Below, in pieces: positions 21,106 to 48,751 of a stretch of 64,000 bases of DNA. The notes under the pieces were generated by a model. It had not been told where the DNA came from and searched no databases. It saw only the letters and a list, made by a program, of their open reading frames with translations. The stretch is from Candidatus Obscuribacterales bacterium (GTDB taxonomy: Bacteria; Cyanobacteriota; Vampirovibrionia; Obscuribacterales; Obscuribacteraceae). A program made the translations under genes and the position numbers. Where the stretch lies: positions 1 to 64,000 of the forward strand of contig JAGVKB010000024.1 in NCBI GenBank assembly GCA_020050835.1, written 5' to 3'. The number at the start of each line of letters is the position of its first letter. The stretch's first letter is position 1.

Positions 21106-21190
21106 TCTTGTTATCCTGACTTTGTCTACTGAATTAGCGGTGACTGCCGGCTGCCTGCTGGACAGTTTCAAATTATTAAGGGAGCATTCC

Positions 21191-28230: not shown

Positions 28231-29448
28231 ATGTCCTCAAATGAACCTGGCTCTTCTGGTCAACAACCTGCCTGCCCGAAATGCGGGCGGCCGGCCCCTA
28301 GAGGCGCGAAGTTTTGCGGCTTCGACGGCACCGCTATTGGTGGCAATAACCGAACCAGCGAAGTAGCCAAACCAGATACCAAGTCCAAGACAGTCGGAAA
28401 GGTATGCCCTACCTGTCAGGCAAGTTATCCCGAATATGCACAGTTCTGCCCGCGCGACTCAGCCAAATTGGTTTATGTCGAGGCCAATCAGCTGCGCAGA
28501 ACTGCAGCCGATCAACCGGTCAGCCAAGCCCCTGCCAAAGAAGATCTGGCAGCACAGCTGGTCAGCACGCCATTCACTCGCTTGACCGGTGAAACAATCG
28601 AAGGGAAGTATCGGCTCGAGCGCGTCATCGGCGAAGGCGGCATGGCAATCGTTTACAAAGCCACTCAAATAAACATAGATCGGCTAGTGGTGCTCAAGAT
28701 CATGCAGTGGCAGTTAAGGGGAAATGAGCGAGCGACTAAACGATTCGAGCAAGAAGCCAGATTTACCGCAAAGGTCAGCCATCCAAACGTCGTCTCTGTC
28801 TTCGACGTCGGATTTCTCGGTGGCGGGCAACCCTACCTGGTAATGGAATACATTAAGGGAGAGTCGCTTAGAGACCGGCTGGAGCGCATCGGGAAGCTAC
28901 CTTTATCGGCCGCTGCAGCAATCATGGTCCAGTTGTGCCGCGGTTTGCAGGAGGCACACAAGTCAGGACTCATTCACAGAGATCTCAAACCGGAGAACAT
29001 CCTTCTCCAGGAAGATGTTGACAGACCGGACTGGGTGAAGATTGTCGATTTCGGCATCGCGCACCTGGTGGTCGGCTACGAGCGGCTCACAAGAACAGGT
29101 AATATCACAGGAACGATCGCTTACATGGCCCCGGAGCAACTTCGCAACGTTCCGGTTGACACTCGCGCTGACTTGTATGCGCTCGGAATTGTTTTGTTTG
29201 AGATGCTGACCGGAACCATTCCGTTCGACGGGGAGAGCACCGAACAGATTTTGCTAAAGCAGCTGATGGAGCCGCCGCAACCACCTTCGAAGTTACGCCC
29301 GGAGATTGAGCCGGGCTCACCGTTCGATCTGGTCGTCATGAAGGCGCTGGAGAAAGATCCGGACAAGCGCTATCAGACAGCTACGGAGATGCGACTACAT
29401 CTTGAGCATATTGCGCAGCAGTTGAGCGTCCGCAGAACCAGGATGTAG
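28231..29448 (+). CDS. Cytoplasmic Ser/Thr kinase with two N-terminal zinc ribbons
   Basis: 405 residues. Two ribbons of the CxxC-x10-CxxD form (Cys15/18/29 and Cys59/62/73) precede a complete Hanks kinase: GEGGMAIV loop at 134-141, Lys156, HRD at 249-251, DFG at 273-275 and APEQ. No membrane helix follows, unlike the kinase at 16996, so it is probably soluble. The same ribbon style recurs in all three kinases of the window. It closes the run that begins with the sigma-like gene, so they may act together in one signalling route. Confidence 0.93.
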   Translation: MSSNEPGSSGQQPACPKCGRPAPRGAKFCGFDGTAIGGNNRTSEVAKPDTKSKTVGKVCPTCQASYPEYAQFCPRDSAKLVYVEANQLRRTAADQPVSQAPAKEDLAAQLVSTPFTRLTGETIEGKYRLERVIGEGGMAIVYKATQINIDRLVVLKIMQWQLRGNERATKRFEQEARFTAKVSHPNVVSVFDVGFLGGGQPYLVMEYIKGESLRDRLERIGKLPLSAAAAIMVQLCRGLQEAHKSGLIHRDLKPENILLQEDVDRPDWVKIVDFGIAHLVVGYERLTRTGNITGTIAYMAPEQLRNVPVDTRADLYALGIVLFEMLTGTIPFDGESTEQILLKQLMEPPQPPSKLRPEIEPGSPFDLVVMKALEKDPDKRYQTATEMRLHLEHIAQQLSVRRTRM

Positions 29449-29553: not shown

Positions 29554-30492
29554 ATGAAATTAGAAAACAACTTTGTCTCCATCTCAGCAGCTTTTGTGCT
29601 TGCCTGGCTTGGCTGTCCGCCAGCGCCGGCCCAGTTTGGCCCAACCATTAGCGCGCCTGCTTCGGCGCTGCCGGCAACCCAAACGATTGCAGACTTTCAT
29701 TTCGAAGCGCCGAGGCCCGAGCCGCCTTTAGGCGGGACGCCACCAATTCTGGTGCCATCAGACGTGACGAATCCTGGATTCACAGGCATCCGCGATCCTG
29801 GCTCTCGTGCTGCCGATGGACTAACCGGCGGGCTGGGAATATTGACACCGCTTTCTGGCATCCGGCAGCTTCCCGACGATAAGTTTGTCGGACTTTCAGC
29901 TCACTCTCCAGAAGACGGCGTGTATATTCGGGCCGGTAAAGATGCCAGATTCGACCAGATGAATCCGGACATGGTCAAGCTGCATACCGGACAGATCCTG
30001 ATCGCTGTCAGTCATCCCAGTAAGTCAGCACTGGTTCAGACCTACCTGGGAGACATCTCGGTTCAAGCCGAAGGACAGGTGCTCGTCTCGTTCGACAACG
30101 GGCTTTTGCGAGTGAAGAATTTGATCGGGCAAGGAAATCGAGTCACTATCAGGCTCGACAAGGGACCATTCGCCGGTCCGGCAGACCCTGTCTACGCCAT
30201 CAGCACCGGCTACGAGCTGACGGCCGGCAACCGCAAGGTTACGCTAGCCGATCTCCATCCAGCGGACGGCATCGGCAGACGAGGCATCCATCTGCTTGCC
30301 AAAGGTTATTTAGCTATAAGCCAGATCTCCCTGACCAGCGTACTTAGCGCCAGCGACCTTCTGGTAGATATGGCTCAGCAGACAACCGGAGCCAAGGAGA
30401 GACGACTGCTGTCAGATCTATCAAAAATGGCAGCCGTACTCAATTACGTTAATGGAACAACCGGCTACGTAGCTCAGCGCAAAACCCCGTAG
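29554..30492 (+). CDS. Secreted FecR-like protein, left flank of the GT-C array
   Basis: 312 residues with a signal peptide ending ...PPAPA. A short Pro-rich linker carries GTPPILVPSDVTN, nearly the same as in the protein at 43174. The FecR-type beta domain (about 125-235) includes VKLHTGQILIAVSHPSK, a FDNGLLRVKNL turn and IRLDKGPFAGPADPVYAIS. A helical end (LLSDLSKMAAVLNYVNG) is also shared with the 43174 protein. The gene ends 46 bases before the first membrane paralog. Function unknown; likely periplasmic or cell-surface. Confidence 0.8.
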   Translation: MKLENNFVSISAAFVLAWLGCPPAPAQFGPTISAPASALPATQTIADFHFEAPRPEPPLGGTPPILVPSDVTNPGFTGIRDPGSRAADGLTGGLGILTPLSGIRQLPDDKFVGLSAHSPEDGVYIRAGKDARFDQMNPDMVKLHTGQILIAVSHPSKSALVQTYLGDISVQAEGQVLVSFDNGLLRVKNLIGQGNRVTIRLDKGPFAGPADPVYAISTGYELTAGNRKVTLADLHPADGIGRRGIHLLAKGYLAISQISLTSVLSASDLLVDMAQQTTGAKERRLLSDLSKMAAVLNYVNGTTGYVAQRKTP

Positions 30493-30537: not shown

Positions 30538-33075
30538 ATGTTGGAGCAGATCTCCAATTCCGTATACAAAGAGCTACCTGAGCAACCGCAAACCAACGTC
30601 ATTGTTCGATTGCTCGGTAACGACTGGACGGCTGTCGCGCTGATCGGTCTATTTTGCTTCCTGGCCTTTGGCAGCGCTCTATTCGGCAATTTCTCGTCTG
30701 ATGACATTTTGCACACTTATTATGCTCACAAGATCTTCCACGGCAGGCCAGACCTTTTGCTCAAGGAGCTGATCGCTGCATGGCCGGACCGCAGCTTTCA
30801 TCTACATTATCGACCAGGAGTCGAGCTTTCGTATGCAGGGGATTATCTGCTCTGGCAAGGCAATCCGTTCGGATATCACTTGAGCAACCTGCTCTTTCAT
30901 TGTGTTTCGACTGCCTTCTTGTTTCTGACCACCAGACTTGTATTAGCCGGAAATGGTCGACTTGATGCTCACTTCATCGCCTTAACCGCTGCTCTGCTCT
31001 TTGCTGTCTTTCCAACGCACGCAGAGCCTGTCTGTTGGATTGCCGGCCGCGTAGACTGCTTGTGCGGAGCGTTCTTCTTTATCGCCCTCTGGAGTTTTGT
31101 CAAACATTCCAAAAGTAACCGGGTCCGATTGAAGACGCTGAGCCTGGCGACATTTGCCGCCTGTCTTGCCACTAAGGAGATGGGAGCATGTCTGCCCTTT
31201 GTAATATCGCTTTGGAGCTGGTTTTTCGACAGTTCGCAAGCCAGCTCCTTTGGAGCACGGCTTAGATATGTAAGTATCAAAACCTTGGACTATTGGGCAG
31301 TGCTCGCGGCATTCTTGCTCGGACGGAGCTTGGTGCTTGGAAATCCGCTCGGAGGCTACTCCGGTGCCGGCGCCGACCTGGTCTGGCGAGATCTCCTACC
31401 CAATTTGCTTCATCCTCACTGGCTCACAACTCTTGCCTATCCACTCAGACGGCTTGCAGCCGACGGTCCGGATAGTCTCGCCCAGAATCTTCAGACGATT
31501 TACATTTTGGTCGGCTCGACCATCATTTGGAAACTCTTGCGAGTCGCGCCCGGCCGGTCTGACCGGCGAATAATCTTCTTCTTTGCCTGGATGGTCCTCC
31601 TATCGTTCTTGCCTGTGTTGCCTGTGTTCTACATCTCACCACTTTTACAGGGAGGCCGATTCTTCTATTTGCCCTGTGCTTCGCTTATGGTGCTGTTTAC
31701 CTTCGCCTTGTTGGGACCCGGCAGCTCGACCAAAGACAGGCATTGCCAGCGTATTGTAGGACTGTTGCTTTCGGGCGGGCTTCTCTTCTGTTTCATTGCG
31801 GCCTCACAGCGCAACAGCTCAACCTGGATTGATTCAGGATTGCAGCTACATACGCTCAAATCAGAGATTGCGGCGGAGATAGAGCACTTACCGAAAGAAA
31901 AGCAACTGGTCATTGTCAATTTGCCCAATTCATTCAACGGCACTCATATGTTTTATTTGTTTGAAATGCTGCAGCGTTTCGTCAGCCCGCCTTTTTGTCT
32001 CGCTAAGCTTTCCGACCGAATCGCAGCGCTGGAGCCAGTATCGTTCGGACAAAAGGTATTGTTGAACAAGGCACGATTGAAAGAGATGATCTCTGCGGAT
32101 TCCTTTCGATTTTGTCTTTGGGATATGAAGCGAAGGCGACTGCAAACTCTAAGCCAGCAGCAACTCGCATCTCTTTCAACTCAGCCAAGCAATTGGCAGG
32201 TGGGTGCAAAACCAGCCCAGGACTTGAAATTGAGCATTCGAGAGATCGAATTCAAAGGGTCTGGCAAGTCCTTCCTCCGGCAATGTCGATACGAGACGAG
32301 CCTGCCGATTCAACCAGGCCACTACGACTTACTGCTATTGGTGGCAACAGCAAAGCCTGCTGTGAACTCCAAGCCTTTCGACGCTTCGCTCGAAGTATCC
32401 TGGGTGCCCAGTCATCAGTGCTATTTCGGTCATCATGATCCGTTCAAGCTGGCACTGACCGCTGATGGAAAGAGTCACACATATATTGTGCCGCTCGGTG
32501 AGCAGAAGAGCTGGAGTCTATCAGAACAAATAGATGGCTTGCAAAGCCGAGTCAAAGGTCGAAACGTTTCAGTCGAGATTCAATCAGCACGTTTGCTTAG
32601 CGGTAAACAGTACATTCCAAGCCTGTCTGCAAATCCCAGTCGATTTGCAACGTTGAGCAACGGGCTGCACCGATTGAAAGAAGGTCAGGCCCGATTCGAC
32701 TTCGATGCAAGCGATCTGCCTGATGCAAAAGGAGTAATAGTCGAGCTATCTAAACCTTTTGGTCACTTCGCCTCCTTTACGAACACTTTGAGAGACGAGA
32801 AGTCCTCTGCTCTTGCCAGCGCGCATATGGAGCTGAACTTCACGAAGGGCTCCTTCGAGCTCCCGGCCCGTTGGTTAGAAACACCGGCCTGGTATCAAGT
32901 CAGGCTGGCCGCAATCTCTGAGACGAGGGCAATTATTGGATACTTCTCAGATCCGGTCTATTTGCAAACTCCAGACTACTCAGGCGGTTCTCAGCCGGAT
33001 GAAACGTCTGAGCAAACTGAAAGTAACTCGATTTCAAGAGCGGATGAGCCGGCGCATAGTATTATTAGCAAGTAA
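30538..33075 (+). CDS. TMTC-like GT-C membrane glycosyltransferase, paralog 1
   Basis: 845 residues. Ten or more membrane helices fill residues 30-430. After the first helix comes SSDD (Asp55-Asp56), the loop position of the catalytic acidic pair in GT-C enzymes; then HYRPG, GNPFGYHLSNLLFH, THAEPVCWIAGRVD and TKEMG, an order close to TMTC-type O-mannosyltransferases, but no TPRs follow. A conserved alpha/beta block (about 455-545) and two beta-rich C-terminal segments, ending in YQVRLAAIS and FSDPV, complete it. I infer lipid-linked sugar transfer to exported protein or polymer; substrate unknown. It has ATGTTGGAG at its start, as do paralogs 2 and 3 in similar form. Confidence 0.8.
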   Translation: MLEQISNSVYKELPEQPQTNVIVRLLGNDWTAVALIGLFCFLAFGSALFGNFSSDDILHTYYAHKIFHGRPDLLLKELIAAWPDRSFHLHYRPGVELSYAGDYLLWQGNPFGYHLSNLLFHCVSTAFLFLTTRLVLAGNGRLDAHFIALTAALLFAVFPTHAEPVCWIAGRVDCLCGAFFFIALWSFVKHSKSNRVRLKTLSLATFAACLATKEMGACLPFVISLWSWFFDSSQASSFGARLRYVSIKTLDYWAVLAAFLLGRSLVLGNPLGGYSGAGADLVWRDLLPNLLHPHWLTTLAYPLRRLAADGPDSLAQNLQTIYILVGSTIIWKLLRVAPGRSDRRIIFFFAWMVLLSFLPVLPVFYISPLLQGGRFFYLPCASLMVLFTFALLGPGSSTKDRHCQRIVGLLLSGGLLFCFIAASQRNSSTWIDSGLQLHTLKSEIAAEIEHLPKEKQLVIVNLPNSFNGTHMFYLFEMLQRFVSPPFCLAKLSDRIAALEPVSFGQKVLLNKARLKEMISADSFRFCLWDMKRRRLQTLSQQQLASLSTQPSNWQVGAKPAQDLKLSIREIEFKGSGKSFLRQCRYETSLPIQPGHYDLLLLVATAKPAVNSKPFDASLEVSWVPSHQCYFGHHDPFKLALTADGKSHTYIVPLGEQKSWSLSEQIDGLQSRVKGRNVSVEIQSARLLSGKQYIPSLSANPSRFATLSNGLHRLKEGQARFDFDASDLPDAKGVIVELSKPFGHFASFTNTLRDEKSSALASAHMELNFTKGSFELPARWLETPAWYQVRLAAISETRAIIGYFSDPVYLQTPDYSGGSQPDETSEQTESNSISRADEPAHSIISK

Positions 33076-33104
33076 TTACACCAACATTAGCGTCTACACA
33101 TATC

Positions 33105-35594
33105 ATGTTGGGACTAGCTTCGCGCTCCCTTGAGTCCACCGGGAAAGCAGGTTCGTCGGCTGGGCGATTCAAGTCGTTCTCAGTTGATTGGATCGCATTC
33201 CTTTCAATTTTCGTCATCTGCATTCTCTGTTTTGCAAAATCTTTGTTCGGTTACTTTCAATCGGACGATTTCACCTTCATTCATCACGCCAGCCAGATCT
33301 GGACCGGACATCCCGAGCTTTTCTGGCGAACACTGCTTTCTGCCTGGGCAGAATCGCCGTACCATCTGCAGTATAGGCCGGCTTACATGCTCTCGTATGC
33401 GCTGGAGTATCCTCTCTGGCAAGGCAATCCTTTTGGCTATCACCTGACCAATTTCTGCCTGCATTTAAGCTCGGCTTTGCTGTGCTATCTAGTGACAAAG
33501 CGCACTTTAGAAGGCACGGCGCAGAGTAACCTGATAGCGCTGAGTACCGGATTACTGTTTGCAGCCCATCCGCTGCATTCAGAAGTGGTTTCCTGGATAA
33601 GCGGGCGGGTCGATGCCATTTGCGCGACCTTTTATCTGCTTTCATTCTGGTTATTTTTAAAGTCGTGCGACTCTCAAAGCAACAAAGCCAGGTCGGTAAG
33701 TTTGGTTTGCTTCGCCGCCGCTCTGCTTGCAAAGGAGATGGCTGCCAGCCTACCGGCAGCAATTTTCGCCTGGATCTTGTTTGTTAGTACGTCTCAAGTT
33801 CCAGCCACTAAAAACAAGATCCGGGATGCTTACACAAAAACAGCACATTATTGGTTCTTGCTGTTCGCATACATCGGGATAAGAGCGCTCATCCTGGGCA
33901 GCGTTGTCGGCGGATATGCCGGATACACCGGGCAGGTTTTCTGGGCGATCGCCTGGCAAAGATGGTTCGGCTCCGGTAGCTTGCAACGCCTTTTCTATCC
34001 ATTGAGCGAAACGTTCTTCAGTGCACAGCATCCGCTGTCTCAAGCGATGCACCTGCTCTATCTGCTTTGTGGACTAGCTTTAGCATTGCGATTGGTGACG
34101 GCACCGTGGAGCCGCGACTACTTGAACAAGCTCGCCTTCTGTTTGGCATGGCTGATCATTTCCTTCATCCCGGTAATTCCAGTCTGGTTTCTCCAGGCTA
34201 ATCTGCAAGGCAGCCGATACGATTACATCCCCTCAATTGCGCTGTGTGCGTTGCTGTCATTACTGCTCTGGACACCGGCGGAAGCCAGCAAGCGATTGAG
34301 TCCGTTGTGGTTGCGTCTCTACCAGAGCATAAGTATCATACTCCTAAGCTCATTTCTCTTATCCTTCATCATCGCGACAAACGGAAATTCGGAAGCTTGG
34401 CTACGTGCCGCAAGGCAGTCGAGGGCAATACAGTCACAATTGGTCAACGCAATTAAGGCGCTGCCGGACGACAAGAAGGCTGTGGTTCTCAATCTGCCTA
34501 AAGATTTCGAAGGAACTTACATGTTTTATCGCTTGGATGAGCTGCGCAGCTTTCTGAAGCCGCCATTTCTTCCAGACGATCTTTCGGCAAGGGTGGCCAG
34601 TCTGGAGCCGGAGTTCTTTGGTTCCGCTGACTTACTAAACCGGCAACGCTTAGCCGAGATGGTCGAGTCAGGCAGATATGAGTTTTTCCTCTGGGACAGC
34701 GGGCGACTCGTACTGCAATCAACAGATCTTCCGCAAGCGTTACCATCTCTGCCACCACCGCCAGCGATGCCACTAGCCGACCGGCAAGCTCGACTCCAGA
34801 CAGATAGCGCCTCTGCCAACAAAGTCGTAGTAACCCTACCGGTCGATTCGGCGCCTGCGCGCTGCGACTGGCTTGAAATCTTAGCGATATCGACACCTAA
34901 GTCGGGAGAGCGCTTCAGGTCCGGGTATGGCAATCTCTACATCTCATGGGAGAAAGAAGGCCCGGAAGCTTTCGCGGATTCGCAGTTGATTCGCACTACC
35001 GTTACCGCCGATGGAAAGCCTCATACCTACTTGATTCCGCTTGGAGAGCACAAAAGCTGGGTGCTGCCTGAACGGATTGACAGAATCAATATCTGTACAA
35101 CAGATACAGCAGCCAGCACACGAGTGCTAGCCACCCGCTTGCGTTCCGGAGAGCAGCTTGTCCCTGTCATTACTTTGAACGGACGGACCTGGAGGGAGCA
35201 GGGAAATGGAGTACATCAGCTAGTTATGGAGCCCGCGACGATTGATTTCAAAGCAGCGCTTTCCGCCGGAATTGAGAGCGTGCTGGTCGAAGTCTCCGAG
35301 CAAAACAGTCAGTTCGCTCAATTGAGTGGAACCTTTCGAGACTTTAAACCTTGCAAGCAAGCGCTGCTGACGTTCAGGCTGAATCGCTCGGCGGGAAGCT
35401 TTCGCCTGCCGGTAGAGAGACTGCCTAAAGCCGGTTGGTATCAAGTGAGAATCGCAGCCATAGATACCGGCAAAGAGATAGCCGGGTACTTCAGTGATCC
35501 GGTTTTTGTCTCGATCAGCGCCTCTCAAATAGCTAGCCAGCGCAGACTTCATGCAATCTGCCCCCCGATTTTCAGCAAAGCGAGTGAGCACTAA
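33105..35594 (+). CDS. TMTC-like GT-C membrane glycosyltransferase, paralog 2
   Basis: 829 residues with the same plan as the preceding copy. SDD (Asp54-Asp55), QYRPA, GNPFGYHLTN, SEVVSWISGRVD and AKEMA are all present, so all presumed active-site elements are retained. The extracytoplasmic block reads VVLNLPKDFEGTYMFY and ...LEPEFFG. The C-terminal half has TADGKPHTYLIPLGEHKSW and YQVRIAAIDTG. Starts 29 bases after paralog 1. The stop codon sits in a TAATTACAC sequence also found at the stop of paralog 1, a trace of the duplication unit. Confidence 0.8.
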   Translation: MLGLASRSLESTGKAGSSAGRFKSFSVDWIAFLSIFVICILCFAKSLFGYFQSDDFTFIHHASQIWTGHPELFWRTLLSAWAESPYHLQYRPAYMLSYALEYPLWQGNPFGYHLTNFCLHLSSALLCYLVTKRTLEGTAQSNLIALSTGLLFAAHPLHSEVVSWISGRVDAICATFYLLSFWLFLKSCDSQSNKARSVSLVCFAAALLAKEMAASLPAAIFAWILFVSTSQVPATKNKIRDAYTKTAHYWFLLFAYIGIRALILGSVVGGYAGYTGQVFWAIAWQRWFGSGSLQRLFYPLSETFFSAQHPLSQAMHLLYLLCGLALALRLVTAPWSRDYLNKLAFCLAWLIISFIPVIPVWFLQANLQGSRYDYIPSIALCALLSLLLWTPAEASKRLSPLWLRLYQSISIILLSSFLLSFIIATNGNSEAWLRAARQSRAIQSQLVNAIKALPDDKKAVVLNLPKDFEGTYMFYRLDELRSFLKPPFLPDDLSARVASLEPEFFGSADLLNRQRLAEMVESGRYEFFLWDSGRLVLQSTDLPQALPSLPPPPAMPLADRQARLQTDSASANKVVVTLPVDSAPARCDWLEILAISTPKSGERFRSGYGNLYISWEKEGPEAFADSQLIRTTVTADGKPHTYLIPLGEHKSWVLPERIDRINICTTDTAASTRVLATRLRSGEQLVPVITLNGRTWREQGNGVHQLVMEPATIDFKAALSAGIESVLVEVSEQNSQFAQLSGTFRDFKPCKQALLTFRLNRSAGSFRLPVERLPKAGWYQVRIAAIDTGKEIAGYFSDPVFVSISASQIASQRRLHAICPPIFSKASEH

Positions 35595-35602
35595 TTACAC
35601 TA

Positions 35603-38104
35603 ATGTTGGACCTGCATCTACAAAACAGGACGCTTGCGCAGCCGACCGGGAAGGCGACGGAGAAGCTGTACCGCCGACAGACTGGCATCGCTGCTTGCGT
35701 GCTATTAGTCATCGTCTTTGCTTGTTACAGCAACGCCTTAAACGCCAATTTCAATTGTGATGATTTTTCACGAATTCACTACGCTTACAAGATCTTTCAC
35801 GGTCAGCCAGAGCTGCTGATTCGTGAGTTAACATCAGCCTGGCCCGATGGCAGCTTCCAACTGCAATACCGCCCGCTCTTCGAGCTCTCCTTCGTGCTTG
35901 ATTATCTACTGTGGAAAGCGAACGCATTTGGTTATCATCTTTCCAACTTGCTGCTGCACTGCGCGGCGACCTTTTTACTTTTTCTCACCGCCCGCAGCAT
36001 GCTTGCGGTTCGCCAACAGAGAGGCTCGTTCCTGCCAGCACTTGTAGCGGCTGCGCTTTATGCCTCATATCCGCTTAGTTGCGAAGTCGTCGCTTGGGTG
36101 GGTTGCCGTGTGGACAGCATCTGTGCCATCTTCTATTTTGCTTCCTTCTGGCTTTTTCTCAGCTCATTACAAAACAAGCAAAAGCTCATAAGACCGCTTA
36201 GCCTTTTCTGCTTTTGTTTAAGCTTACTTTCGAAAGAGATGGGAGCCAGCCTCCCAATGGTGCTACTGGCCTGGATGCTCACTGCTCAATGGACAGAAAG
36301 AAAGACACTATTTTCAGTATTGAGAAAGTCTCTTTGGGAAACTCGCGCTTATTGGTCGGTGCTCGTACTCTACATAGTTGTAAGAGGGGTAATCCTGGGC
36401 AACCTGATTGGCGGTTATGTCGGGTCGACCGGCGATTCAATCGCTGAAAGTAGCTTGAATCGATGGGTGAATTCCGGTTGTCTCTATTACTTGGCTTACC
36501 CACTCAACACCGCGTTTTTCTCTAGCCATTCCTTTGTCGCAGAGGTGTTGCACCTGCTCTGCTTAGCCGGTGGACTGCTCATAATTTGGCGCATCCGGTC
36601 GTTCGGCTGGGCCGAAGATCGGATGCGGATAGTCATGTTTTCTGCACTCTGGTTCGTTCTTTCTTTGTTACCCATTTCGACCGTCTTCTACATCTCGCCC
36701 TTTCTGCAGGGCGGCCGGTACATCTACATCCCCGCTGCTGCTCTTTGCCTGTTAGTCACCACTCTTTTGTACCGTCCAGAGTCATTTGAAACAACGGCAA
36801 GTCGACAGCTCGCCGCTTTCAAATCGGTCTCTTTTCTGGTTCTAGTTGCTTTATTGTGCTGCTTTGTCTCTGCTTGCCGCGGAAATACGCAATGCTGGAC
36901 GGACTCAGCGATGCAAACCATCGCCTTGCAGTCAGAGCTGGTCAACAAAATCAAACATCTTCAACACGAGCAAACACTTGTAGTGCTCAATCCACCAAAG
37001 GACATCGAGGGAGCGTACATGTTTTTCACATTTGAATTGCTCCAGAAGCTCCTAATGCCGCCATTCTTTCCATCCGATCTCTCAAACCGAATCGCTGCGC
37101 TCGAACCAAGATTCTTCGGGGAATGCCATTTGCTCAACCGATCGCAACTGAAAGAGCTAACAGAGCACCGGCTTTACCAATTCGCGCTCTGGGATCGAGA
37201 GAAACTAAAGCTAAATCTGGTTGCTCGCTCATTCTGGTCGCCATTTCTTTCGTCTCACCGGTCAAACGAATCGACCGTCTCCTTTGCTCAGGAAAGACTG
37301 TTCAGGTCCAAAGGTAAAGATCGGCGCATCCTTACCTATAGAATTGAGCCCCCGGCAGCGCCGCTCAAATCGCAATTTATCGGGATTACACTGATTAACG
37401 ACAACTCGGCTCAAAACACGGCTGATGCGACTGGCGATGTGATTGCAATCGGCTGGTCTCCAGAGCACCGTGAACTCTTCGGTGAAGCACCATGGATAAG
37501 CCAGCCGCTTTACCGGCATGCCGATGCTCGAGAGTACCTATTCGCCACCGGTCAGTTCGAGAACTGGTCCTTAAGTGAAGCGATCGACAAGGTTGACATA
37601 CATCTTCCGGCCGCTAGCAACGCTTCCATTGTTAACGTACGACTACTTTCCGGCGACCAGCAGCTACCGGTGCTCAAACTTGATTCACAGCGCTGGAGGC
37701 AACAGTTGGATGGGCTGCACATACCATGTGATCAGAACGCCACTATGACGTACGACGTCTCCAGCGTGCCAAACGCGAATGGAGCAGTAATCGAGATCTC
37801 CCAGCGCTACTCACAATTCCAGCAATACACGAACACCTTGAGAGACTTTAAGTTCTCCCCGCACGCAGCCGGCTCGATTAGATTTGCCAAAAGGTCTGGT
37901 CGCTTCAGTCTGCCGGCCAGTACATTCCGTCAGCCAGGATGGTACCAGATTAGAGCTGCCGCGATCGCAAAGACAGGGGAGCTGATCGGATACTTTGGTG
38001 ATCCTATCTACATAAGCATCTCCGCTTTAGAGTCGAGACGAGTCAAGCAATCATCAGCCTTTCAGAATTCCGGATCAATCACTCGAGACCTCGGTCATGA
38101 CTAG
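35603..38104 (+). CDS. TMTC-like GT-C membrane glycosyltransferase, paralog 3
   Basis: 833 residues. CDD (Asp53-Asp54), QYRPL, ANAFGYHLSNLLLH, SCEVVAWVGCRVD (Cys in the usual GRVD position -4 region) and SKEMG follow the family order. The periplasmic block carries VVLNPPKDIEGAYMFF and LEPRFFG. The C-terminal part keeps NWSLSEAIDKVD, SGDQQLPVL and YQIRAAAIAKTGELIGYFGDP. Begins 8 bases after paralog 2 and overlaps paralog 4 by 8 bases, which suggests translational coupling. Differences from the neighbours in the lumenal C-terminal domain may set acceptor choice; that is inference. Confidence 0.8.
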   Translation: MLDLHLQNRTLAQPTGKATEKLYRRQTGIAACVLLVIVFACYSNALNANFNCDDFSRIHYAYKIFHGQPELLIRELTSAWPDGSFQLQYRPLFELSFVLDYLLWKANAFGYHLSNLLLHCAATFLLFLTARSMLAVRQQRGSFLPALVAAALYASYPLSCEVVAWVGCRVDSICAIFYFASFWLFLSSLQNKQKLIRPLSLFCFCLSLLSKEMGASLPMVLLAWMLTAQWTERKTLFSVLRKSLWETRAYWSVLVLYIVVRGVILGNLIGGYVGSTGDSIAESSLNRWVNSGCLYYLAYPLNTAFFSSHSFVAEVLHLLCLAGGLLIIWRIRSFGWAEDRMRIVMFSALWFVLSLLPISTVFYISPFLQGGRYIYIPAAALCLLVTTLLYRPESFETTASRQLAAFKSVSFLVLVALLCCFVSACRGNTQCWTDSAMQTIALQSELVNKIKHLQHEQTLVVLNPPKDIEGAYMFFTFELLQKLLMPPFFPSDLSNRIAALEPRFFGECHLLNRSQLKELTEHRLYQFALWDREKLKLNLVARSFWSPFLSSHRSNESTVSFAQERLFRSKGKDRRILTYRIEPPAAPLKSQFIGITLINDNSAQNTADATGDVIAIGWSPEHRELFGEAPWISQPLYRHADAREYLFATGQFENWSLSEAIDKVDIHLPAASNASIVNVRLLSGDQQLPVLKLDSQRWRQQLDGLHIPCDQNATMTYDVSSVPNANGAVIEISQRYSQFQQYTNTLRDFKFSPHAAGSIRFAKRSGRFSLPASTFRQPGWYQIRAAAIAKTGELIGYFGDPIYISISALESRRVKQSSAFQNSGSITRDLGHD

Positions 38105-40658
38105 AACTCAGTTACTACTGTCTCGCAACGATCGGCCGGCTGGAATGAATCCGAGCGCCTCGGACAATGGCAATACATTCGATATGCTAGCGGCAATTCT
38201 AGTGATTGCAGCTATAAACCTGGTCTGCTATTGGAATTCATTGAGTGGATACTTCTATGCAGACGACATTGTCCATCTGTCGATGCTGCACTCGGCATTC
38301 AACGGTCATCCCGAGCACTTGTTGAGCTGCTTCTGGTCGCCCTGGCAGGATCGCACCTTCCAATTGTTCTACCGACCGGCCGTGGAGCTCAGCCTGGCAG
38401 TCGACTATTTGGTCTGGAAAGCCAACCCGTTCGGCTTCCACCTCACCAATCTGTTGCTCCAATTCGTGTCGTCTCTCTGCGTATTTGGAATCACAAAACG
38501 GCTTCTCCACGAGGTCAGCCGCAAGCAAGCCTATTTTGCCGCACTATTTAGCGGTGCGCTCTTTGCCTGCTACCCGTTGCACGGTGAAGTAGTCGACTGG
38601 GTAGTCGGCAGAGTGGACGGACTTTGTGTAGCATTTTACTTACTGAGCTTGTGGCTCTTCTTGAAGCGCGAGCAAGACGGAAGCGCTCGCTTATCCGCCG
38701 CCCTGTCAACCTTCGCGTTGAGCTTGCTCAGCAAGGAAATGGCGGTTACCTTGCCTCTCGTTGTCGCGCTCTATTCGTTCGTTTGGTCTACAGATCAGCC
38801 ATCATTATTCAAAAGAACAGCAGCGTCGATTCGGCGCACTTTCCCGTTCGCGCTTGTCTTGCTCGCCTTCCTGGCAATCCGGAGCTTGGTACTCGGTACG
38901 ACCATCGGTGGGCACACTTCCGCTCTCGCAAAACTCTTTGCTGATACGCTCACTATCAGGTTGTTCCATGTAGGTTCATTTTGGCAGCTCATTTTTCCGC
39001 TTAACCTGGAGCTAATTCCGCTGCACGGGAGACTCTCCACAGCGCTGCACATCACCTATCTATTGGCCGGTACGACTGTACTCTTGCGATGCCTCTTTCA
39101 GTCCAGCAGTCCGTCGGTGAGTAGACCGCTGTTCTTTCTTCTAGGATGGCTCTTAGTAGCGCCGCTGCCGGCCTTGCAAGTATGGTGCATAACCAGCGTA
39201 TTGACCGGAGGAAGATTCGCCTACCTGGCTTCAGCCGCACTATGCATTTTAATCACACTCATTGTCTATCCATTCGAGAACCAACCGCGCCCTAAAGTGG
39301 CGCTACTAGAGGAAAAACGCCTTGATTCAGTCGACGAACCTGTTTGCGAATCTGCCACCGCAGTAGCATCGGTGCTCCGCAACGAAACCGGCAGCGACAC
39401 ATCGCCGCTTAGCTTGATTCGGTCGATTGTAGCTCGCCTTTCGATCGCGATTCTGATTACACTGATAATCTGCTTCAGTCTCATCACGATTCGAAACAAC
39501 CAAGCCTGGCTGATCGCAGGCGATGAGACCAAAGCGCTGATGGCGGCGATTGAAAAGATCTCCAAGCGCGGAGATCCCCGTCGAATAGTGGTACTCAATT
39601 TGCCGAAGGATCGCTATGGCGCTCACATGTTCTACACTTTCGAGTTCCTGCAAAAATTGCTCAAACCACCGTTTCAAGAAAGCGACCTCTCCAATCTCGT
39701 TGGCTCTCTGGACTTGCGTTACTTCAAAGACGCCGACCTTCTGAACGCAAGCAGGCTAAAGGATATGGTGGCGACCGGCCAGTATCGTTTCTTTTACTGG
39801 CTGCCAGAAACCAGACAATTGCGAACAGCCGACCAGCAAATCGCCATGCTTCTTTCTGGCCAGTTCAGGACTGCCTGTCTGCCGGCACGTTTCGTAGGCG
39901 ATCGCATCATTACTGAAAAAGGTCGGATCAAACACCGTTGGATCTACTGCCTTGATTCGCCGATTGCTGCCAATCGATTCGGTTTTATCGATGTAATCGC
40001 TTCCTTTTCTGCCAGAAAGCTACTGTCAGGTTTCAAAAGCCTCCCGGCTGAAGTTTCAGTCGGCTGGAGTTCCGCTCACGAGCAGCGCGCAGAAAGATTT
40101 TTTGCGCCGGTCTGGCAGCTCCATGAGGATGGCAAAGAACACACTTATCGATTTTCAGTCGGCGATCGCCGGTGCTGGTCTTTGAGCGATCGTATCGGTG
40201 CGATTTACATTGATATGCCGGAGGCAGGAGGTGCTGTGCGCTCAGTCGCGCTGGTAGACGGAAGCGGTCTCATTCCAACGCTTGCACCGGGCTCCGGGAC
40301 GCTGCAACTGGACAATGACGGTACCTATAGTGCACTCGGGTCGAAAGTGACTTTACACTACGACGCTTCGCAACTGCCGAACGTTGCCGGTGTCGAACTG
40401 GAAGTTTCACCGCCATTCTACAGTTTCGATGAATACGAAGGAACATTGCGAGCGCTTGCACCTTCAAAGCGCTCCATACTTCGGCTGACGACCGAAAAGA
40501 CTAAAGGCAGATTTGATATAGATTGCAAGACTCTACCGTCAGCTGGGTGGTATCAGGTAAGAATTCACGGACTGGATCGATCGGGGCGGCAACTGGGCTA
40601 TTGTTCGGACCCGATCTCAATCAAAGTGGGGAAGCGCTTACAAGGAGCGCGAAATTAA
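38097..40658 (+). CDS. TMTC-like GT-C membrane glycosyltransferase, paralog 4
   Basis: 853 residues, the longest copy. ADD (Asp56-Asp57), FYRPA, ANPFGFHLTNLLLQ, HGEVVDWVVGRVD and SKEMA are conserved. It has an extra charged loop of about 45 residues between late membrane helices (about 400-445, rich in Glu, Arg and Ser) not seen in the other copies. The periplasmic block reads VVLNLPKDRYGAHMFY. The C-terminal region keeps HTYRFSVGDRRCWSLSDRI and YQVRIHGLDRSG. It starts inside the end of paralog 3. Confidence 0.8.
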   Translation: MTRTQLLLSRNDRPAGMNPSASDNGNTFDMLAAILVIAAINLVCYWNSLSGYFYADDIVHLSMLHSAFNGHPEHLLSCFWSPWQDRTFQLFYRPAVELSLAVDYLVWKANPFGFHLTNLLLQFVSSLCVFGITKRLLHEVSRKQAYFAALFSGALFACYPLHGEVVDWVVGRVDGLCVAFYLLSLWLFLKREQDGSARLSAALSTFALSLLSKEMAVTLPLVVALYSFVWSTDQPSLFKRTAASIRRTFPFALVLLAFLAIRSLVLGTTIGGHTSALAKLFADTLTIRLFHVGSFWQLIFPLNLELIPLHGRLSTALHITYLLAGTTVLLRCLFQSSSPSVSRPLFFLLGWLLVAPLPALQVWCITSVLTGGRFAYLASAALCILITLIVYPFENQPRPKVALLEEKRLDSVDEPVCESATAVASVLRNETGSDTSPLSLIRSIVARLSIAILITLIICFSLITIRNNQAWLIAGDETKALMAAIEKISKRGDPRRIVVLNLPKDRYGAHMFYTFEFLQKLLKPPFQESDLSNLVGSLDLRYFKDADLLNASRLKDMVATGQYRFFYWLPETRQLRTADQQIAMLLSGQFRTACLPARFVGDRIITEKGRIKHRWIYCLDSPIAANRFGFIDVIASFSARKLLSGFKSLPAEVSVGWSSAHEQRAERFFAPVWQLHEDGKEHTYRFSVGDRRCWSLSDRIGAIYIDMPEAGGAVRSVALVDGSGLIPTLAPGSGTLQLDNDGTYSALGSKVTLHYDASQLPNVAGVELEVSPPFYSFDEYEGTLRALAPSKRSILRLTTEKTKGRFDIDCKTLPSAGWYQVRIHGLDRSGRQLGYCSDPISIKVGKRLQGARN

Positions 40659-40667
40659 GGATTATCG

Positions 40668-43052
40668 GTGGAGATTTTGGGAAACGATAGCCTAGTTCGA
40701 TCCATAAAACTCAACAGCGTGGCGATCATCTTTCTTGCCATTCTCACTTACATTTGTTTCGGAAAGACAATCGGCGGATACTTTTACGCCGACGACTTCA
40801 GCTTTCTCGAGATGGCAAATGATGCTGTAAACGGGCATCCCGAAATCTTGCTGAAGCACCTCCACTCCTCTTTCCCAGACGGATCTTACACGCAGTTCTA
40901 TCGACCGCTGATTCCCTTGACGATTGGTCTGTACTACGTATTCTGGGGTGTAAACGCGTTTGGCTATCATGTCGCGAGCTTGTTTACGCAGTTTCTCTCG
41001 GCGATGTTCCTTTACCTGGTGTCACAGCGGCTTCTCAGCGGGTATCTGGATAAATCGTGTCGATTGGCAGCGCTCTTAACAGCTTGCCTTTATCTCGCCA
41101 ATCCACTTCATATCGAAGTAATTGCCTGGCCATCAGAACTAGGTGATGGAATCGGAACGGCGCTCTACTTGGCGTCAATCTGGCTGTTCTTGCGATCGCC
41201 TTGCCACAGGTCGTCCGGTCCAAGCTTGCTTACCTTTGCACTGAGCCTGCTCTACAAGGAGGTAGCAATTGGATTACCAGCAGTGTTGGTCCTGTCTGTT
41301 TACTTTCTTGAACCATCGGACGAACACTGGATTGCGCGCCTGAGACAGGGCGTGAAAGTGACAACCGGCTATTGGATCATTTTTGCGCTCTATTTGACGA
41401 TTCGATACTTTGCACTGGGAACGGTTGTCGGCGGCTATTTCGGCTCTGCAAGCATGGGCGGCATCAGCACAATCATCGAGCGTATCTTCCTGCACGACGG
41501 GCTTTCGAAGGTGTCCTATCCGATCACACCCAGCCCGAACGATTCGACGTTCTTGGCTGTTCACGCACTGCAGCTGGCCTATGTCGCGATCGGATTGCTG
41601 GTGGCTTTTCGCTCGCTAACCGGTCTCTGGTCTGACAGAGCACTGAGCTTGATGGCATTTGCCGTCTGGTGGCTGCTTCTTTCCGTCCTTCCGACCCTGC
41701 CGGCCTGGCACATCTCATCGGCACTGTCCGGCGGGCGCTATATGCATCTTGCTCTTGCGCCGCTCAGCTTGTTTGTCGCACTGGCAGCGATTCCGCTTTT
41801 GCCTGCACCGTCGGCGCTACGAACCAAATCGAAGCGGCTTTGCAGTATTGCCGCCCACATTCTGATTTGCGGTTTGATCGCCTGTTTTGTCAGTTTAGCC
41901 CAGAGGGAGTCCGGAAGATGGCTCGCCGCCGGCCATGAGCTGGGCCGACTCCAGGCGCAGCTTCTAAGTACAATTGTCAAACAACCAGATGCCACCAAGC
42001 TGGTTCTATTGAACCCGCCCGACGAAATAGAAGGCGTACCGGCATTTACTTCGTTCAGCATGTTGCAGAGCGTTGTTCGACCGCCATTTTCAAACACTGA
42101 CTTTTCGTCCAGGCTGGCCTCCTTAAGTGTTCTCTACTTCCCGAGAGATGTTTTGAACATCTCCCGCCTCAAGACAATGCTCTTATCGCAGAACTATGCA
42201 TTTTGTGTCTGGAACTCCAGCCAGAAATGCCTGACTGGCTATCGACCCGGACTGGCTAGTCCGCAAACATGTACGACGGTAGAGCTACCGATTGTGGCTT
42301 ACGGTCAAGTGGCCGAAGCTGGCGAACCGATAGAAAGATACATCTGCAAGATTCCGCCCGAAACCAATTTGTTGAATTACGACTTGATCGAGGTCACATC
42401 AGCCCCACAGCGACCTTCAAGTGGTCAGGTGCTATGCGACAAAGCCTGCCTCGCCTGGGCAGTGAAGCCCCATCTTTTCGATACAGGCATAAAGAAGCTC
42501 GAACTGAGAGCCGATAACTCCTCCCGATCGAGCCGACAATACCTATCTGTTTCTGACACCGTGAGCTGGCTGCTGGCAGACCGAACCGTTCCAATCTCAA
42601 TAGACTTGCCGGCGCGATGCCACCAGAAGATACTTTCGGTCAAACTGATTTCCGGACGGACGGCAGCGCCGACTCTTCGGCCGGACAACTGGCGCGCAGG
42701 ATACTGGCGCCAGAGCATTTATCCGCTGGACAGAGAGTTTGGCGCGTTCAGTTTTGACGCATCGAAAGTACCGGGGGCAGCAAGAGCGATACTTGAAATC
42801 TCCCCACCCGATATGCGATTCATAGATTTTTCCAGAACCTTCAGAGACCATACGCTCAGCGCTTACGCTTGGAAGAGAATCAAGCTAGATGGGTTGCAAG
42901 GCTCAGTCAAGCTTCCAGCCGCAATGTTTAAAAGCAATGCGGTGTATGAGTTACGGGTTGCCGCTCTTTCTGCAGACGACAAGTTAGTCGGTTTTCTTTC
43001 CGATCCGGTGGAAATTCAGTGCACAGGCTCGCACTTAAGTTCCACGCGCTAG
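40668..43052 (+). CDS. TMTC-like GT-C membrane glycosyltransferase, paralog 5 (divergent)
   Basis: 794 residues, the shortest and most divergent copy. ADD (Asp42-Asp43) and FYRPL with VNAFGYHV are kept, but the WxxGRVD motif of the others is replaced by WPSELGDG, and KEM by KEV. The periplasmic block reads VLLNPPDEIEGVPAF, with the HMFY/YMFY part lost. GTG start at 40668 with AAGGA 7 bases upstream. The altered loop suggests changed specificity or a regulatory, non-catalytic role. It is the last gene of the array, 121 bases before the second FecR-like gene. Confidence 0.78.
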   Translation: MEILGNDSLVRSIKLNSVAIIFLAILTYICFGKTIGGYFYADDFSFLEMANDAVNGHPEILLKHLHSSFPDGSYTQFYRPLIPLTIGLYYVFWGVNAFGYHVASLFTQFLSAMFLYLVSQRLLSGYLDKSCRLAALLTACLYLANPLHIEVIAWPSELGDGIGTALYLASIWLFLRSPCHRSSGPSLLTFALSLLYKEVAIGLPAVLVLSVYFLEPSDEHWIARLRQGVKVTTGYWIIFALYLTIRYFALGTVVGGYFGSASMGGISTIIERIFLHDGLSKVSYPITPSPNDSTFLAVHALQLAYVAIGLLVAFRSLTGLWSDRALSLMAFAVWWLLLSVLPTLPAWHISSALSGGRYMHLALAPLSLFVALAAIPLLPAPSALRTKSKRLCSIAAHILICGLIACFVSLAQRESGRWLAAGHELGRLQAQLLSTIVKQPDATKLVLLNPPDEIEGVPAFTSFSMLQSVVRPPFSNTDFSSRLASLSVLYFPRDVLNISRLKTMLLSQNYAFCVWNSSQKCLTGYRPGLASPQTCTTVELPIVAYGQVAEAGEPIERYICKIPPETNLLNYDLIEVTSAPQRPSSGQVLCDKACLAWAVKPHLFDTGIKKLELRADNSSRSSRQYLSVSDTVSWLLADRTVPISIDLPARCHQKILSVKLISGRTAAPTLRPDNWRAGYWRQSIYPLDREFGAFSFDASKVPGAARAILEISPPDMRFIDFSRTFRDHTLSAYAWKRIKLDGLQGSVKLPAAMFKSNAVYELRVAALSADDKLVGFLSDPVEIQCTGSHLSSTR

Positions 43053-43173: not shown

Positions 43174-44127
43174 ATGTCAAGCAGACGACAAGATCAAATG
43201 GGCAAAATTTCAACCGCATTGATGATGCTGGTTGCCTTCGGATTCATTCTGCTCGCCACCACTTATGTAAACAACCCGGTTGCTGGGCAATATGAGCCAC
43301 CGTTCGATATCCCGCCGCCGCCTCCGCCTCCGCCTCCTCCTCCGATTATCGAAATCCCACCACCACCGCCACCACCGCCGATTATTCCGCCACCGCCGCT
43401 CGATGGCACGCCACCAATTTTGGTGCCAACTGACATAACGAATGCTAACTTGATGGGCTTGGTCAACCCAACAAATCTAGGAGCTGTAAGCGGGCCAATC
43501 GGCGCTACGTCTTTGAAAGCGCTCAAAGAAGACAAGTCCGGACCGACCGATGGTCTTTACTATCGGCCAAAGACCGGCACCGAATTCACACACCCAAACA
43601 ACTTTGAAATCGCGCTGACTTCTGGCGAAATACTCGTTTCGGTTCGCCACCCATCGCACAACATGGTAGTGACCAATCCGCTCGGTACCGTTTCCGGACT
43701 GGCCGACTCCGACGCGATCGTCTCATATAAGAACGGCGTTCTGCATGTTTTCAACTTGAACACCCAAAAAGGTGCCGTGCAGATCAAGCTGGACAAAGGG
43801 CATTTCGGCGGAGCAGCCGACCCTGTATTGCAATTGTCAGCCGGTTACGAGCTCGTCGCGGCCGATCGCAAACTCTCCCGCAGCGATGTCAGACCGCCTG
43901 ACGGCGTCGGGCGCAAGAATACGCGGTTGGTTGAAGATGGCTATGTGGCAATCAGTCAGTTTGCGCCGGAAAGCCTTCTCAACAATAGTGAGATTCTCGC
44001 TGACATGAATCAGCAGGCAGCTGGAACCAAGGAGAAGCGAATTATTAACGATCTCTCGAAGATGGCTGCAGTGCTTAACGTTGTGAATGGCTCCGGCGGA
44101 TTCGAAGCTACCAGTAAATCACGCTAA
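43174..44127 (+). CDS. Secreted FecR-like protein with polyproline linker, right flank of the array
   Basis: 317 residues. A hydrophobic segment at about 12-30 acts as signal peptide or anchor. Residues about 45-77 are almost pure proline, broken by short II/EI/DG breaks. GTPPILVPTDITN follows, then a FecR-like domain (FEIALTSGEILVSVRHPSHN, KNGVLHVFNL, IKLDKGHFGGAADPVLQLS) and the helical end INDLSKMAAVLNVVNG. It is clearly paralogous to the protein at 29554 on the other side of the five-gene array. Polyproline could span the periplasm or peptidoglycan. Function unknown. Confidence 0.82.
   Translation: MSSRRQDQMGKISTALMMLVAFGFILLATTYVNNPVAGQYEPPFDIPPPPPPPPPPPIIEIPPPPPPPPIIPPPPLDGTPPILVPTDITNANLMGLVNPTNLGAVSGPIGATSLKALKEDKSGPTDGLYYRPKTGTEFTHPNNFEIALTSGEILVSVRHPSHNMVVTNPLGTVSGLADSDAIVSYKNGVLHVFNLNTQKGAVQIKLDKGHFGGAADPVLQLSAGYELVAADRKLSRSDVRPPDGVGRKNTRLVEDGYVAISQFAPESLLNNSEILADMNQQAAGTKEKRIINDLSKMAAVLNVVNGSGGFEATSKSR
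43311..43400 (+). repeat. CCG/CCT/CCA triplet tract encoding polyproline
   Basis: Two stretches of CCN codons (43311-43344 and 43356-43400, mostly CCG, CCT, CCA). Such tracts can change length by slippage and need EF-P for translation. Confidence 0.8.
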
Positions 44128-44230: not shown

Positions 44231-47200
44231 ATGAGAAGAGTGGGTTCAATCGTCAAAAGCCTTGCGTTGGCTGCGCTGCTCGCCAACGCGCAATCTGGAC
44301 AGTCGGCAGCCCAGGTAACCGCTGCCACAACTTCGGCCCAGTCGGCTTCATCTTTTCCGCCGGAATTGGAGCACCTCAAGCACTCGCTGGAGCAAGCTCG
44401 CCACAGATCGAACCGTAACGCCGAAGCCGATGCTCTGTATGATCTCGCCAAGGCTTGTTTTGAAGCTCATGATGCAAAACTAGCCGAGAGTTTTATGCGG
44501 CAGTGTATTGAGGTGGAAGGCACACTCAAGCGGCCGGATTCAGAGATCAGAGCGCTGGTGGCACTAGCCAATATTCTCGTTTCAACGCATCGCAACGAGG
44601 ACGCCTTGAGAGAGTTCGGTCAAGCTCTGACTGTGGCCAATAACCACCGGAGGGAATCCCAGGCGGCATCGATTGTAGGCAATATGGGAGCGCTTGCGCT
44701 CGTCTCCGGACATTACGATGAGGCCCAGAAATTGTTCGAGGAAGCCCGCGGCACAGCGGCACGCAACAAAGATGCTTCCGGACAGGGCAATGCGTTGGTT
44801 AATCTGTCCGTGATTGCACGAGCTCGCCGAAATCCGGACGAAGCGGTAAAGCTCTTAACTGAAGCGATCAAAGTCTTAAAGGACGGCGGTGATGACCGCA
44901 GCCTGGGCGCGGCATACATGGAACTCGGTCGAACGCAATCGGACGGCGGCGAACCGAGCGAAGCGATCGCCAGCTATAGACAAGCGGTCGAGCTTCAAAA
45001 AGGCGAACTGGACAATGTTTCAGCAGCCAAATCGCTAGTAGCGATCGGACAGATCTTTCGCGCTCAGGATCGATTCAATGAAGCAGAATCGGTATTCAAG
45101 GAGTCCTCCGAGCTGCTGTCCGGAGAGACTGCCCCCGGATTGACGCTCGACGTGCTGATCGGACAAGGGGGTGTTGCAGCAGGCAAGGGCAATTTCGCGG
45201 AAGCTGAGCGCATCCACAAACATGCGCTCGCAATGGCTCGCAAACAGGCCGATCGCATTCGAGAACGAACCATCCTTTCTGAGTTAGGATACGACTATTT
45301 TGCCAGCGGCTCTCCTGAGCAAGCGATGAATCAGTACGTTGCTGCCTTCAGCCTGCTCTCCGAGCAAGAACCGAATAATCTCAAAGCGAAAGGTATTCTT
45401 CTTACCGACATCGCTATGTCCTGTAAGGCAGTGGGCCAGCTGCCGGCAGCAATCTCCAACTACGAACAAGCGGTTGAATGTTTTACAAAGGCAGGTGATT
45501 CCGCCAGCAAGGCTCAAGCGCTCAACAGCCTGGCAGTAGCATATCTGGACAACGGCATGCTGCCGAAATTCGACAAACACTACAATCAGGCTAAGGAGCT
45601 CTACGCAACTCTTCAAGACAGACGGGGAGCCGCGGTTCTGGACTACAACCTGGCCCAGTTCAATCTAGTACAGGGGCATCCGGCTGATGCCATTCCGCTT
45701 TACGAGCAGGCACTGGCCAACGCCCGCACCGCCGCCGATACCACTTTCGAAGGGCAGATACTGCGCGGGCTTGGTCTTGCCTACCTGTATCTCGGCAGAT
45801 CTGGCAAGTCGCTGGAGTGTTACAAGCAAGCGATGCCACTAGCTGACTCTTCGGGCAACATCGAGTCGCAATGGGAATGTGCTCTCGGACTTGGCAAATC
45901 ATATAAGGCGCTAGGTCAACTGGATGAAGCCATCAAATATCTGAGATCGGCTGCAGAGTTAGTAGAGAAAGAGCGCGGCAAACTCTCCCGTGACTCGTTT
46001 AAGACCTTTAATCTCGACATGCGGCAGGATTGTTTCCTCGAACTGGTGGATGTCCTGGTCAAGGCCCATCAGCCGGCCGAAGCACTCGAATACGCGGAGA
46101 AGGGCAGAGCGAGAGCCTTCCTGGACCTGCTGGAAGGGAGACGCTCTCGGCGTCCCAATGATGGACTGACCGGCGATTCGCGAGCCCCTGTGCCGACTTT
46201 CGACTTGGCATCGCTTCGACCGGCCGAAGCTGGAACACGGGGGATTGAGGTCGTAGCGCGCGCCACTACCTACGTCGAAGCTACTACCATTAGCCCGATC
46301 AACGCTCAGGCACCGACCCTGACGGAGATCAAATCGCTCGTCTCGAAGAGCGGGTCTACGTTCGTAGAGTATTTCGCGCTACCCGATAAGCTCCTGGTTT
46401 GGGTTATCCACCCAAATGGTCAAATCGAGATGCCACCGCCGATAGTGATTAGCAGGAAGGCTCTGACAGCAAAGATTACCGATACTTACAAGGCAGTAAT
46501 CGCTCATCCGAGATCGCCAGAGGAGCTGAAGCTAGCAAACGATACGAGAGACCTCAAATTGAGAGAGCTCTATTCACTTCTGTTCGAGCCGGTCATACCC
46601 TTCCTGCCCAAGTCAGCAAATGCCGACATTACTATCGTTCCGCATGGTCCGCTTTTCTCCGTGCCATTCGCTGCATTGACTGCTCCCAGCGGAAAATTCC
46701 TGGTGGAAGAGCGCACGCTCAGCTACATACCGGCGATAGGAGTACTGAGAGCGACCCAAAAGCTCAGTCAAGAATCAAAAACCGGCGACCAACAACTGCT
46801 TGCATTCGGCAATCCGATTACAAAGCAGATCTCATTCCTTGGCACATTGCCTTACTCAGAGAAGGAAGTTAAGCGCGTCGCTGAATTGTTCGGAGCCAAT
46901 CACTCATTATTGAAGATTGGCGGTGAGGCGACCAAGGCAGAATTTTTGAAAGATTCACCGGGTGCAACCGTAATCCATTTGGCCACGCATGGTCTGGTCA
47001 ATGAAGAACATCCGATGGAATCGGCTCTCGTGCTTGCACCATCGGGCAATGATGACGGGCTGCTGACAGTCAGGGACATACTGCAACTGCCCGCTTTAAA
47101 GTCACATCTGGTAGTACTTTCCGCCTGCCAAACAGCTAGAGGCAAGATCACCGGAGATGGGGTCGTCGGACTATCGCGATCTTTCATAATCGCCGGCACA

Positions 47201-48521: not shown

Positions 48522-48751
48522 CAAAGTCCTGGCTTTCTATCTAAAAACCGGTTGCCAACAGAACCAATAGTAAGAGATTCCACCGCCTGATTATAGTCGA
48601 AGGTCAACTCCCTGAATAGAAGCATGCCTTCATGCAAGCGCGCTTGCCAAGAAGCCCGGAAGCACATGGGACATTGTATTCAGGTGCCACCGCAGCCGGT
48701 GATAAGATCTAGTTACTCTGTAAATCCCTATATTGCATACCAGGACTGAAA

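Follow-up and report, generated by a model that had tools for sequence, protein, structure and literature searches.

A tandem array of five diverged, TMTC-like GT-C membrane proteins and a linked FecR-like exported protein in an Obscuribacterales genome

Five long membrane proteins are encoded end to end in the 64,000-nucleotide stretch of Candidatus Obscuribacterales DNA analysed here (hereafter the window), raising the questions of what kind of enzymes they are, whether they are copies of one enzyme or several different ones, and what they might act upon. An earlier note on this DNA had read them as near-copies with a motif order matching that of GT-C/TMTC O-mannosyltransferases. To our knowledge, the surface chemistry of the non-photosynthetic relatives of cyanobacteria is almost unstudied. 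These organisms are predicted to be diderm (PMC4040986).

The five-gene array and the predicted fold of its products

All five ORFs of the array are full-length and lie on the + strand. Copy 1 (30538..33075; 845 aa) consists of a membrane domain with the motifs DD, YRP, GRVD and KE, an alpha/beta block and a beta-sandwich C terminus. It is followed by copy 2 (33105..35594; 829 aa; PMT_2 score of 25-29 bits), the copy that was modelled, copy 3 (35603..38104; 833 aa), copy 4 (38097..40658; 853 aa), which overlaps copy 3 by 8 bases, and copy 5 (40668..43052; 794 aa), which has a GTG start and is the most diverged. The spacings between successive ORFs (29, 8, -8 and 9 bases) and the lengths of 794-853 residues are those given in the earlier note. 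Copies 1 and 2 belong to one family (E 5.6e-152), and homology between copies is long and far above chance (E down to 2.8e-169), the five sequences being alignable from end to end. Promoter and terminator scans of the array gave results at chance level only, so it is the short gaps and the common strand that suggest co-transcription. An assembly artefact is ruled out by the 30-36% identity of the copies and the synteny of the locus in other genomes. The source genome also contains four further paralogues that had previously been missed, a pair on contig C97 and single genes on C56 and C20.

Sequence profiles place these proteins near the PMT_2 family (PF13231; curated cut-off 26.1 bits). In hmmscan searches, copy 2 fell just under the cut-off (E 2.2e-5, 25.1 bits), copy 3 gave a weak match (E 0.0017) and copy 4 none; the search of the whole genome disagreed, placing copies 2 and 4 above the cut-off, at 29.4 and 34.3 bits, respectively. 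PMT_2 was matched by 18 of 43 family members (best E 8.3e-10), and relatives of the array proteins reached 38.6-39.5 bits, above the cut-off. A search of PDB sequences with copy 2 returned nothing useful, the profile of the 43 members had no match among PDB sequences at E≤1, hhalign comparison of this profile with E. coli ArnT alone was not significant, and NCBIfam searches with the GT-C copies produced chance-level matches only.

The structural comparison proposed in the earlier note was performed on copy 2, with an AlphaFold model built from an alignment of seven sequences. This multidomain model has medium confidence (mean pLDDT 71.7, pTM 0.64), with helices until about residue 452 and mostly strands thereafter. 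In a Foldseek search against the PDB (E<1e-3), the top matches were GT-C enzymes: EmbB (2.2e-6), AglB (5.5e-6), STT3 (3.3e-5), PglB (8.7e-5), ArnT (1.6e-4), DPY19 (2.1e-4) and Pmt4 (3.6e-4). The TM-scores of the copy 2 model were low throughout (0.2-0.44), and the claim is therefore one of fold class and not of close relationship. At this level, the assignment of the transmembrane domain of the array proteins to the GT-C fold holds for the model. The remaining matches, too short for the membrane part, were to beta-sandwich domains found in glycosidases and in FN3 proteins.

The alpha/beta block and beta-rich C terminus previously described as shared by the copies are seen in all five of them in the alignment, and in the model of copy 2, in which the alpha/beta block covers residues 455-545 or thereabouts. 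When modelled alone, the C-terminal part gave a weaker prediction (pLDDT 64.1, pTM 0.51) with the last 100 or so residues confident, and the resulting model matched mostly tandem beta-sandwich proteins of the FN3 type. The additional C-terminal module is, in these models, a pair of beta-sandwiches, the last of which is FN3-like. It has nine matches in the source genome, all within the GT-C gene family.

Conserved residues and the TMTC motifs

Among 76 members of the family, R91, P92, E160, K210, E211, P217, R260, P299 and R371 (copy 2 numbering) are invariant, and D54 (74/76), D55 (75/76), R168 (74/76) and D170 (75/76) are nearly so. The acidic pair D54/D55 lies in the first periplasmic loop, where it constitutes a hallmark of GT-C enzymes. 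Candidate catalytic residues in copy 2 are D54/D55, R91, R168/D170, K210/E211, R260 and R371. The motifs had been described as identical in the five copies, which is true of DD, YRP and KE. The other two vary: copy 4 has FGFHL and copy 5 has FGYHV for FGYHL, and in place of GRVD copy 3 has CRVD and copy 5 has ELGD. Copy 5 has thus lost the arginine of the otherwise almost fixed RxD motif, and its specificity may have changed.

Seven motifs have been defined for TMTC proteins: DD, SHKSYRP, RxD, KE(T/Q)xxT, DW, PxxP and ERxxY (PMC7801869). Five of these are present in the array family (M1 as DD, M2 as YRP, M3 as RxD, M4 as KE and M7 as RxxY/F) and a sixth in part. The TMTC-type motif order reported in the earlier note was borne out, with M1-M4 and M7 in the published sequence. 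The glutamate of M7 is not kept, the family having mostly S/G-R-x-x-Y/F at this site. The first proline of M6 (PxxP, in TM9) is conserved in 74 of the 76 members and the second in seven, with glutamine mostly found in its place. Alignment of copies 1-5 showed no conserved DW (M5, in EL4) in the loop concerned. Searches with hmmscan of the copies and family members gave no match to DUF1736 (PF08409) or to TPRs. Genome searches for DUF1736 were also empty, but so were their controls, and in the lack of a working positive control they are weak as negatives and do not prove absence. The proposal that another C-terminal module replaces the TPRs of TMTCs agrees with these results, beta-sandwiches standing where TPRs would be.

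Given that DUF1736, TPRs and DW were not found, we do not file the array family as TMTC, and O-mannosylation in particular, as put forward in the earlier note, is not supported. True TMTC/GT105 O-mannosyltransferases that have lost their TPRs would have the observed order of motifs and residues, and TPRs do follow a GT-C domain in distant relatives from another family of the same class. We nevertheless regard this explanation as very improbable, because DUF1736 (with the weak genome-search negatives mentioned above), the DW motif and TPRs are all missing from the matches, and the TPR-bearing relatives themselves are without the RP, RxD and K residues. "TMTC-like GT-C" is a fair label for these proteins, but "TMTC/GT105 O-mannosyltransferase" is not. 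Sequence and model together suggest that they work like GT-C enzymes of the ArnT/PMT/TMTC type.

Divergence, distribution and gene neighbourhood

The copies are not near-copies, because identity to copy 2 is just 35% for copy 1, 36% for copy 3, 33% for copy 4 and 30% for copy 5, and their positions in the family tree are scattered. In a tree of the 76 members, inferred by a quick method and with several forks unresolved, copies 1-3 formed one supported clade (support 100), copy 4 clustered with the single copies of genomes G005 and G028, and copy 5 was placed apart from copies 1-4. The array therefore does not consist of five near-copies implying five related acceptors, as previously argued, but of old, diverged paralogues of a family-wide gene family with several old lineages, and it lies within a lineage-specific expansion. 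Related but distinct specificities would follow from this divergence. Partial decay, with one or two working copies and the others as relics of duplication, would account for the long branches and for ELGD and FGYHV in place of GRVD and FGYHL in copy 5. We consider it improbable, because the array has five intact ORFs of about 800 codons in which DD, YRP, E160, KE, R260 and R371 are fixed at 30-36% identity, and drift would not keep them.

A profile of the five copies had 4-24 matching pieces in every one of the 50 genomes examined from the same bacterial family, whereas the gene family was not detected in any of three genomes from a sister family. Among the 289 genomes of the class that were searched, matches outside that bacterial family were weak only. 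The phylum sample yielded membrane-domain homologues of 543-584 aa (loci L093-L095) in a single genus outside the class, in three of its genomes, and the hosts are presumably photosynthetic cyanobacteria, judging from phylum and kinship. A single collection scan, the one search to reach past the phylum, returned two loci.

In the tree, lineages A and B were separated from a lineage that takes in the window copies, and the C56 and C20 paralogues fell into a further, small group. Lineages A and B form a tandem pair in many genomes, with a GH1 glycosidase adjoining the pair in 24 loci and a DsbD-like gene in 23; in the source genome (G000), the pair is that of contig C97 (L015:4404-11177). Divergently oriented from the glycosidase and DsbD-like gene in about 24 loci, the A-B pair makes up a unit that is better conserved than the array of the window. 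The contexts of the other paralogues, named by eye, include epimerases and an ABC-2 type exporter for C56, and a DegT-like aminotransferase and a hexapeptide acyltransferase for C20. In three loci (among them L016:3221-5965 and L021:12246-14975), a family member is adjoined by another GT-C-like protein, about 910 aa long, the L021 copy of which matches PMT_2 with E 4.3e-8.

The number of GT-C genes at the locus syntenic to the array differed between genomes: one in L020, two in L061 and L068, three in L054 and five in the window, the longest array observed. The array thus appears to mark the upper end of a copy-number range (1, 2, 2, 3, 5) at one syntenic locus. On one side, genes for 479 aa, 402 aa and zinc-ribbon proteins and a kinase are conserved in L020, L061 and L068; on the other, FecR-like, TPR-CHAT and 352 aa genes are conserved, and L054 shows this side only. 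In the window, the zinc-ribbon Ser/Thr kinase (28231..29448, +; 405 aa; Pkinase 2.7e-52) belongs to this synteny. The TPR-CHAT exported protein (44231..47437, +; 1068 aa; Pfam CHAT 4e-70) is kept beside the GT-C locus in L020, L054, L061 and L068. Convergent to its gene is that of a 352 aa protein (47466..48524, -), conserved in five syntenic loci, with a signal-like N terminus and, by eye, a sequence resembling an outer-membrane barrel, for which no Pfam match was obtained. Elsewhere, the window encodes a malic-enzyme-like protein with an N-terminal ACT domain (19630-21171, -) and an Eco57I-type restriction-modification methylase with a TaqI-like specificity domain (4405-6753, -).

Two flanking genes that had previously gone unmentioned encode FecR-like exported proteins. 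One, directly upstream of the array (29554..30492, +; 312 aa), has a proline-rich N-terminal stretch; the other, on the downstream flank (43174..44127, +; 317 aa), has a polyproline stretch. The two share 43% identity, and the downstream protein shares 70% with the protein encoded beside the lone GT-C gene of L020. With E 0.051, this L020 protein falls short of the Pfam FecR threshold, so "FecR-like" is our own reading. Strong FecR-like matches numbered 65, in 53 genomes; at least 25 of these lie within 5 kb of a GT-C gene (in at least 19 genomes) and at least 20 within 150 bp (in at least 17 genomes), these counts being lower bounds. By a rough estimate, one or two of the 65 would be expected within 5 kb by chance. 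The GT-C lineage of the window is strongly linked to a FecR-like exported protein. FecR-like domains also occur within very long open frames of up to about 12,500 aa (G051:C2:5198-5878 and G027:C10:108838-109323), which possibly encode giant surface proteins.

Proposed function and likeness to known systems

We consider it probable that the array encodes five GT-C glycosyltransferases transferring sugars from polyprenyl phosphates to an envelope glycan or exported glycoprotein in the periplasm. The N-terminal 450 or so residues would span the inner membrane with the active site facing the periplasm, where D54/D55 of the first loop would bind a metal or activate the acceptor, and the sugar and phosphate would be bound by YRP, RxD, KE, R260 and R371. 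As donors, GT2 enzymes of the ArnC/GtrB-like type would make undecaprenyl-phosphate sugars, which a flippase would turn over, after which the GT-C enzyme would transfer the sugar on the periplasmic side. Such multi-component schemes, consisting of a GT2 enzyme, a flippase and a GT-C enzyme, have been reviewed (PMC8035078). The genome contains 19 ArnC-like matches (best 39% identity, E 1.3e-61). A search of the genome found no GtrA flippase, so another type of flippase must serve. AftD, and perhaps YfhO, have extracellular carbohydrate-binding domains for acceptor binding (PMC8035078), and the periplasmic C-terminal pair of beta-sandwiches may likewise recognize the acceptor, as is proposed for the extra domains of AftD. 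The linked FecR-like protein would be a partner or candidate acceptor.

Two kinds of acceptor can be weighed. The array proteins may decorate a surface glycan, adding side sugars to O-antigen, capsule or lipid A in the manner of ArnT, GtrII, YfhO or AftD, with the FecR-like protein as an accessory or scaffold. We give this a little less than an even chance. The location of paralogues within clusters of the sugar-nucleotide and polysaccharide-export type, the resemblance of the C-terminal sandwiches to the domains by which AftD, and possibly YfhO, bind acceptors (PMC8035078), and EmbB as the top structural match all point to a glycan, and serotype-like glycan variation would fit expansion with divergence; against it, no polysaccharide genes were found beside the array within the window, and the search for GtrA was negative.

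Alternatively, the array may encode protein O-glycosyltransferases of the PMT or TMTC style, acting on exported proteins and firstly on the adjoining FecR-like proteins. In Caldicellulosiruptor bescii, a GT39 gene near cellulase genes is needed to glycosylate those secreted enzymes (PMC6151902). This precedent (PMC6151902), PMT_2 as the closest family match, the presence of TMTC motifs M1-M4 and M7, and direct gene linkage with a single family of exported proteins in at least 17 genomes are consistent with protein acceptors. However, the proline-rich linkers of the FecR-like proteins are mostly poor in Ser/Thr (2-28%, with six of 11 below 10%), which weakens these proteins as O-glycosylation acceptors, though not to the point of excluding them. 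Furthermore, the core pair A and B and the C56 and C20 paralogues do not adjoin FecR-like genes, and the C-terminal module resembles sandwich/FN3 domains rather than MIR or TPR domains. We view protein O-glycosylation as rather unlikely.

Returning to periplasmic sugar transfer by GT-C enzymes in general, we tentatively suggest that the Obscuribacterales might have an undescribed family-wide glycosylation system in the periplasm, in which paired core GT-C enzymes are joined by an expandable array that acts on, or together with, a dedicated FecR-like exported protein, and the length of the array (one to five genes) tunes a variable surface glycan or glycoprotein. The findings offer a concrete handle on the surface of these non-photosynthetic relatives of cyanobacteria: all sampled genomes of one bacterial family encode these GT-C proteins, which have a C-terminal module of their own, fall into several old lineages, occur in arrays of as many as five genes and are linked to an exported partner. 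Such diverged natural sets of enzymes could show how the acceptor or donor of a GT-C protein comes to change.

Within the known GT-C kind, the family is distinctive in its C-terminal module, lineage-specific expansion and linked exported partner. It has the GT-C fold and first-loop acidic pair in common with bacterial PMT_2 (PF13231) transferases, including GT39/GT83-like enzymes and ArnT, but adds an alpha/beta and beta-sandwich C terminus of about 350 residues. DD, YRP, RxD, KE and RxxY are shared with TMTC1-4 (GT105), and a conserved proline stands for PxxP, whereas DUF1736, DW and TPRs are without counterpart in the array family. The TPR-bearing proteins of L097 and L100, from another family of the same class, match the membrane domain weakly (1e-18 to 1e-20); they keep ERxxY as well as the Pro and Glu of HPxxxE, but RP, RxD and the K of KE are not conserved. 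In these proteins, a diverged GT-C domain is followed by TPRs where the array family has beta-sandwiches. The cyanobacterial homologues of L093-L095 are 26% identical to copy 2 over the membrane domain, with the same DD, RP, RxD and KE and an alpha/beta block that starts alike, but they are without the long beta-sandwich module and keep the canonical ERxxY. The arabinosyltransferases EmbA/B/C and AftD, from another clade of organisms, share a likeness of fold only, with no sequence similarity detected among PDB entries at E≤1; like the array proteins, they are GT-C enzymes with additional beta-rich extracytoplasmic domains, and EmbB is the best Foldseek match.
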